Assembly: GCA_020328155.1 (NCBI GenBank)
Contig: JAIXMX010000005.1
Coordinates: 1-64,000, forward strand
Length of the DNA: 64,000 nt
Reading direction: 5' to 3'
DNA from: Candidatus Endomicrobiellum agilis
GTDB taxonomy: Bacteria > Elusimicrobiota > Endomicrobiia > Endomicrobiales > Endomicrobiaceae
The position numbers and the translations under genes are program-made. Under the pieces are notes generated by a model, which had not been told where the DNA came from, did no database searches, and was given only the letters and a program-made list of their open reading frames with translations. Positions 30,642 to 31,352 of the stretch are shown one piece after another; the first letter of the stretch is position 1; each line of letters opens with the position of its first letter.

Positions 30642-31352
30642 CTATTCCTCAATGAATATAACGCGCTTCACAGGCATTTTAAATTTCTTCCTCAACAGAG
30701 TTTTTAGAGATTTCAGAATTGACGAATTAGGCTTATAAAGAAGCGAATAATTAGAACCCGCAGGAACACCTTTATTCAAAACAGGTATTTCGTCAATCCA
30801 ATTGAATGTATCATAAGCAAAATAACAATTAATACTAGGTACCTTATAACAACGTTTATAACCTTCTGAGAGAGCTTTTTCTTCAGAAAGATTAACAGTA
30901 CCTAATTTATCTCTAGGAATAAATTCATGGTTTGCAAATTCATAAAGCAGCTTATAACCGCCATAATATACGCCAGCAATAACAGCAAGAGCAAGAGTAA
31001 CAGTAACAGCATAAGCAACAATATTCAAAACCAAATTTGCAGCTAAGTTACCTGCGTTAATCGCAGGAAAATACCAATACCAAGAAAGCCAAGAGGAAGA
31101 CGCAGCGCTATCGGGCAAGACTGGTGCAGTTTCTTTCGGCGAAGATGTTAGAGCGGGAGCATTTGAAGGTTTAAGAACAGTATTTGATGTCAGCGGAGTC
31201 GTTAGAACGCCGGCGCTTCCTTTTTTCTCAACAACAGTATTCACAGGGCTTCCATGATTAGGCAGCTTACCGCAGCCAGACGACAAACATATACATATAC
31301 ATATACATATACATATACATATACATATACATATACATATACTTTTTTTCAT
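30642..31352 (-). CDS. Paralogous lipoprotein 7 with (Ile-Cys)9 signal peptide
   Basis: About 236 residues from ATG 31352 (AAGGA upstream); an in-frame ATG at 31394 with its own AGGA would add MIEAAEKFVKEKLI ahead of the signal peptide. Nine TATATG hexamers encode nine Ile-Cys pairs, the longest run in the window, before lipobox LSSGC. Ser/Pro linker, hydrophobic helix (AYAVTVTLALAVIAGVYYGG, then YKLLYEF) and the family C-terminal domain (CYKVPSINCYFAYDTFNWID, EIPV, LKSLKTLLRKKFKMP). Largest paralogue. Confidence 0.85.
   Translation of the reverse strand: MKKSICICICICICICICICICLSSGCGKLPNHGSPVNTVVEKKGSAGVLTTPLTSNTVLKPSNAPALTSSPKETAPVLPDSAASSSWLSWYWYFPAINAGNLAANLVLNIVAYAVTVTLALAVIAGVYYGGYKLLYEFANHEFIPRDKLGTVNLSEEKALSEGYKRCYKVPSINCYFAYDTFNWIDEIPVLNKGVPAGSNYSLLYKPNSSILKSLKTLLRKKFKMPVKRVIFIEE

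Follow-up and report, generated by a model that had tools for sequence, protein, structure and literature searches.

The window analyzed here is a 64-kb stretch of DNA (G000:C18) from a 1.286-Mb genome, 99.9% complete in 23 contigs, of Endomicrobiellum, a genus of termite-flagellate endosymbionts (PMC11257099). A pattern search of the window finds perfect (TATATG)n arrays at four sites on the minus strand, with n = 9, 6, 4 and 6; the expectation is 0.00 matches for (TATATG)3 in 100 dinucleotide-preserving shuffles. On that strand each unit is read as ATA TGT and encodes Ile-Cys. The arrays stand directly behind ATG AAA AAA and one further codon, a lipobox (L-T/M/S-S-G-C) follows within a few residues, and the array genes of the window open as MKK-I(IC)nL.SGC. 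The first-pass annotation had taken the repeats for the hydrophobic core (h-region) of lipoprotein signal peptides, lengthened by Ile-Cys per unit, and the ATA-TGT frame inside MKK..(IC)n..xSGC openings bears this out.

The longest array of the window, (TATATG)9 at 31288..31341 (minus strand), supplies the (Ile-Cys)9 h-region of the signal peptide MKKS(IC)9LSSGC, which counts 27 residues from Met to lipobox Cys. Its gene (30642..31352, minus strand, 236 aa) starts with the ATG at 31352, has a Shine-Dalgarno-like AAGGA at 31363-31367 and encodes, behind the signal, a linker, a predicted transmembrane segment (the VYYGGYKLLYEF region) and a C-terminal domain. A cluster of lipoprotein genes, all on the minus strand, occupies 16.8-20.4 kb. 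The gene for a 194-aa lipoprotein at 16815..17399 carries (TATATG)6 in its signal peptide (17353..17388), and that for a 182-aa lipoprotein at 17401..17949 is found with (TATATG)4 at 17915..17938. The next gene (18342..18908, 188 aa) has an interrupted array, ATATGT GTATGT TTATGT ATATGT (ICVCLCIC, 18873..18897), in a signal peptide that still measures 17 residues; it is followed by a 208-aa lipoprotein gene (19089..19715) with (TATATG)6 at 19669..19704. A small relative with the C-terminal domain alone (19896..20183) bears the ordinary 17-residue signal peptide MKKVISLFLMAVLISGC, and a small lipoprotein of 69 aa, MKRLVSLVICCMMFIGCDQL..., is encoded at 20180..20389.

The cluster is bordered upstream by gcvPA, encoding glycine decarboxylase subunit 1 (21135..22466, minus strand), and downstream by gcvPB, encoding subunit 2 (15032..16480, minus strand). 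Among the 27 genus relatives that possess gcvPB, 25 carry gcvPA at most 0.6 kb upstream of it. G038 and G040, the relatives with the highest gcvPB identity (87 and 89%), depart from this and have a different insert at the junction: in G038 a series of shorter ORFs, in G040 two ORFs of 313 and 503 aa, the larger one weakly matching adenine methyltransferases. Since the inserts differ between the present genome and these two relatives, the gcvPA-gcvPB junction seems to accept changing cargo, and the interval 16480-21135 is, judging from these comparisons, an insertion hot spot.

Within its own genome the main lipoprotein family gives 63 tblastn matches at E values up to 1 and 40 profile matches at E values up to 0.01. 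It occurs in one of 99 relatives, the own genome included, and by profile in one of the 76 genomes of the taxonomic family. At the sensitivities used, no match was obtained in genome contigs, viral contigs, plasmids or phages, and Pfam, NCBIfam and PHROGs returned nothing for it; a phage or plasmid origin was rejected on the lack of any match in viral contigs, plasmids, phages and PHROGs. In the structure model of the 16815..17399 product, which is of medium confidence (mean pLDDT 65.6), a signal helix (residues 2-18) precedes a disordered Ser/Thr/Pro-rich linker (19-69), a long and presumed transmembrane helix (70-102), a small beta domain (112-170) and an amphipathic C-terminal helix (172-183). 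A PDB fold search with this medium-confidence model gave nothing below E 1 (best E 2.6). By the positive-inside rule the C-terminal domain would presumably be cytoplasmic.

The mature part of the protein shows a median dN/dS of 1.42 over 66 pairs drawn from 12 members, with five pairs below 1; the values come from a simple method and from non-independent pairs, and gene conversion may have distorted them. The same script returned 0.10 and 0.11 for the controls gcvPB and gcvPA, compared with relative G040. This calculation, with gap-flank masking and control genes, repeated an earlier estimate made from a single multiple alignment. On these values we read the main family as diversifying, or at least as very weakly constrained in sequence, with its frames kept open. 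As far as its sequences tell, the lipoprotein family is private to the species, paralogous, duplicating and diversifying. Frame-shifted lipoprotein remnants lie beside intact copies at 29400-30000 and 31540-32060 of the window and suggest birth-and-death turnover. Mosaic genes occur as well (C11:839, C20:64011 and C20:65617), in which an (IC)n N-terminus is joined to a different body beginning at a second, lipobox-like ISGC, and the same array is found on lipoproteins with different bodies at C7:15857, C15:9375, C20:66786 and C11:127142.

All of the repeat sites first listed for the window, including the degenerate form at 18873-18897, are present as described, but the set extends over the whole genome, where 80 overlapping (TATATG)3 matches collapse into 24 tracts of at least three units, the largest reaching n = 12 at G000:C11:1809. 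All 24 are in frame, with MK[KR] before and a lipobox behind them, a count to be read with the arrays being partly inherited through gene duplication and the tracts hence not independent. When tracts of at least two units are taken from the window and the stretches around the genome's tracts, 30 are obtained, with n ranging from 2 to 12, and 29 of them run in frame from MK[KR] to the lipobox. The sequence features of a type II (lipoprotein) signal peptide are found together: a basic n-region at the N-terminus, a hydrophobic core and a lipobox ending in Cys. The single out-of-frame tract, C16:78674, has A6 in place of the A7 run that stands directly behind the ATG, beside most arrays. The view that slippage never shifts the frame holds for the 6-bp unit but fails for this neighboring run, as the frame-shifted A6 paralogue illustrates, and the A7 run could be an on/off site. 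Sixteen (IC)n genes are situated less than 3 kb from a contig end in a fragmented assembly, so that the assembly may have influenced copy number and the length of some arrays.

The arrays bear the marks of slippage. ATATGT accounts for 125 of the 138 Ile-Cys units; the other 13 read ATATGC, and each of them closes its array. In 19 large ORFs of the window Cys is more often encoded by TGC (74 of 123 codons), and codon preference was rejected as the source of TGT on that account; identical interior units with a variant edge point to repeated gain and loss of interior units, not to codon use. Signal length, measured from the Met of MKK to the lipobox Cys, tells the same of purity: it is 17 residues in 30 of the 34 array-less lipoprotein ORFs and in all 12 interrupted arrays (such as ISVCLCIC; C1:217135 and C7:18404 are counted here and not as pure), and it spreads from 13 to 35 in pure arrays, equalling 17 in just 8 of 27. 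Fisher's test gives p = 6.6e-8 for pure arrays against the other two classes and 4.5e-5 against interrupted ones, values that serve as a guide only because the genes are partly paralogous. The comparison covers 73 of 82 ORFs, some of the 82 being spurious and nine having been left out for want of an MKK or MKR start. Two of the four array-less exceptions to 17 residues, MKKIIYIFLTSGC and MKKIICIFLVSGC, resemble contracted arrays.

Close paralogues also differ in repeat number. C21:66 (n = 6) shares 97.4% DNA identity downstream of the lipobox, gaps aside, with C21:842 (n = 4) and 96.7% behind the lipobox with C7:18799 (n = 9), which in turn is 95.4% identical in that part to C10:12458 (n = 2); the identical pair C20:64011 and C20:65617 has n = 4 in both copies. 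Among 26 genes, how far members differ in n bears no relation to their divergence (rho -0.04, with 1152 of 2000 permutations at least as high). Repeat number therefore appears to turn over faster than the flanking sequence, on the understanding that this variation is among paralogues of one assembly, whose differences could be old. Perfect interiors with variant edges, fixed length upon interruption and close paralogues differing in n together uphold the initial proposal that repeat number changes by slippage. Loss of mismatch repair was rejected as a cause, MutS and MutL being present with open frames in the genome. Perfect short tandem repeats with a slippage signature in a gene or its control region, as in contingency loci, are thus found here, and the frameshift on/off behavior is not: the 6-bp unit stays in frame and the one shifted copy is due to the A run. 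Taken as a reading of sequence, it is well supported that these signal peptides are made by slippage and vary in length.

(ATATGT)4 occurs in one of 340 genomes of the phylum, the present one (one of 41 in the genus), and no other of the 340 has even four units; a phylum-wide trait was rejected on these counts together with those of the main family (1/99, and 1/76 by profile). Beyond the phylum, the (ATATGT)4 24-mer was retrieved in 37 stretches from 84,980 public genomes and in 21 from 2.9 million viral contigs. None of these 58 outside tracts has an in-frame start within 25 codons and a following lipobox, features that the same script detects in 16 of 16 own tracts, and a general property of this microsatellite in other organisms was rejected accordingly. 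The hexamer array recurs on three contigs of the Elusimicrobia MAG Zod_Metabat.862, in two cases at a contig end and in none within a lipoprotein signal. A literature search over a mostly open-access collection listed no case of an in-frame dipeptide repeat in a signal peptide of bacteria.

Other repeats accompany the same genes. (AGGAT)n is present at 17 sites of the genome with 3.6 to 9.6 units, in 14 cases directly upstream of an intact lipoprotein start codon (13 by translation, C11:122124 by position). One of them, Shine-Dalgarno-like, abuts the start codon of the small lipoprotein gene 20180-20389 (20390..20415, minus strand). The remaining sites precede a frame-shifted lipoprotein remnant (29922..29941 of the window, minus strand), a signal peptide without lipobox Cys (C6:3251) and, at about C10:4707, no clear gene. 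(AGGAT)n is found in one of 76 genomes of the taxonomic family and its main carrier family in one of 41 genus genomes; these tandem Shine-Dalgarno-like repeats are a candidate translation dial in their own right. Five hexamer arrays encoding Thr-Pro or Ser-Pro also lie in Pro-rich linkers, in the frame of lipoproteins. A count of perfect arrays (unit of 4-12 bp, at least four copies, 50 rows collapsed) gives 42 in a 237-kb sample of the genome that was selected for the surroundings of the family and of the (AGGAT)n sites and takes in the whole window. Lipoprotein genes hold 39 of the 42, the others being C18:29922, C6:3251 and about C10:4707, and neutral slippage alone would be expected to leave arrays in intergenic DNA too. 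A 101-bp repeat is also seen between lipoprotein genes (window 16718-16818, 18043-18143, 19000-19100 and 19807-19907); it codes for part of a small ORF (MPENVESVTEDILKETRSIYISAQSLIRRL...) and has no PHROG match.

We favor the reading, with a probability of roughly 0.55, that the tract is a slippage-prone microsatellite forming the signal core of a private lipoprotein family and most likely exerting a graded effect on export. Gain and loss of units would still be going on in the population, each slip adding or removing two residues of the hydrophobic core. The core would measure about 8 residues before the lipobox Gly-Cys at n = 2, the usual 12 at n = 4 and 24-32 at n = 9-12, where it would be long enough to span the membrane; the usual 17-residue signal would correspond to n = 4, or to n = 3 if the array is followed by Ile-Phe or Ile-Ser. 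Short signal cores export poorly and over-long ones can remain as anchors, and a graded effect is for this reason likely. It would most probably take the form of a graded change in precursor targeting, lipidation and rate of cleavage by signal peptidase II, near-minimal cores exporting weakly and very long ones lingering as membrane-anchored precursor. Tuning of export by n is what we infer from these lengths. In the least certain step, (AGGAT)n, (ATATGT)n and the Pro-rich linker hexamers would make dosage, export and reach changeable by single slippage events. An analogue, dial-like contingency system of this kind, with slippage arrays at the ribosome-binding site, the signal core and the linker of one lipoprotein set, is offered tentatively, as the less probable extension of the preferred reading. 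If it were true, an endosymbiont-sized genome would reset lipoprotein synthesis, export and reach stepwise and without gene loss.

The alternative that survives best, and to which we grant a little less than even odds, is neutral tolerance: a permissive hydrophobic core in which slippage is harmless, in a weakly constrained family where n drifts without regulatory meaning. Relaxed constraint would explain much of the pattern without any tuning, and it agrees with dN/dS values at or above 1, with decayed paralogues nearby, with a family private to one genome and with the independence of n from divergence, the one variable tested. However, across the 237 kb perfect arrays were absent from ordinary intergenic DNA and from other coding sequence, bar the unclear C10:4707, drift could not easily place three classes of array at three functional positions in a single set of genes, and the frames are open in the 12 compared genes despite high dN. 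As the arrays are all but absent from the ordinary DNA of the sample and sit at three functional positions, we lean slightly toward a selected role for them over drift.

It is unlikely that the arrays act at the DNA level, the shared repeat serving as a homology or fragile site through which lipoprotein genes recombine, with length change as a by-product. The three mosaic genes and the presence of one array on lipoproteins of different bodies would agree with such a role; yet the mosaic joins lie downstream of the array, and the different-bodied lipoproteins depart from the main family both in their upstream sequence and in the codons behind the array, a pattern in better accord with separate expansion than with transfer. 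Less probable still is an effect on translation, in which the ATA run near the start or the out-of-frame AUG of each unit (in the window genes that frame ends at a TGA behind the lipobox) would slow or divert ribosomes and n would tune synthesis instead of export, a notion to which variation at the ribosome-binding site of sister genes lends some color, but ATA is the commonest Ile codon (384 of 791 in the 19 large window ORFs) and not rare, and the AUGs inside the array lack a ribosome-binding site.

Simple-sequence contingency loci of the Haemophilus, Neisseria and Mycoplasma type are short tandem repeats concentrated in the genes of surface and envelope proteins, and classically act on/off through frameshift or promoter spacing. 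The present arrays resemble them in the slippage signature and in belonging to envelope protein genes, and differ in that the 6-bp unit alters signal-peptide length in frame. The variable lipoproteins of mollicutes such as Vlp are likewise paralogous, with a conserved N-terminus and a variable remainder; their repeats vary in the mature protein or the promoter, whereas those described here vary in the cleavable signal peptide. Unimolecular spanins of phages combine a lipobox, a Pro-rich linker and one transmembrane segment in a single chain, and C11:121113 shares this layout. The main family was rejected as a unimolecular spanin on account of the C-terminal domain behind its transmembrane helix, and a PHROG search at E 0.1 with three of its members matched no spanin or other entry. 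Mycobacterial microsatellites are reported to affect signal peptides by frameshift, in contrast to the in-frame length change seen here (PMC1501019).

The nearest likeness among the cases compared is human. The signal core of acid sphingomyelinase (SMPD1) contains a hexamer that adds a hydrophobic dipeptide per unit (LVLALALALALA); its alleles range from 5 to 10 units in one study and from 4 to 9 as cited from another, and fewer repeats are reported with slightly lower secreted activity (PMC2241771; PMC4490514). Both cases have a hexamer coding for a hydrophobic dipeptide in the h-region and varying in number, here among paralogues only. SMPD1 is a single human locus with an ordinary secretory signal and Leu-Ala units; the present set comprises dozens of bacterial lipoprotein signals with Ile-Cys units and n up to 12 among the paralogues of one assembly.

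Variation driven by repeats is, for bacteria, usually pictured as a switch between on and off. In these genes the repeat belongs to a part of the protein that is cleaved off, and the frame is kept. A small-genome bacterium has export signals that differ greatly in length from gene to gene, be it as a dial on export or through mere tolerance. One genome offers a natural series of signal cores, about 8 to 32 residues in length, and supplies its own controls in the interrupted and repeat-free relatives, so that signal-peptide length as an evolutionary dial is directly testable with this set. With its natural examples, the series could also show up to what length a lipoprotein signal core still permits cleavage.

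The window contains further repetitive features of its own. A CRISPR-like array at 71-570 has a repeat of about 36 bp and a period of about 66 bp. Lipoproteins composed of repeated G-Y-D/N units (KDGYDRDGYN) are encoded at 30184-30459 of the window and at G000:C2:45154-49159.
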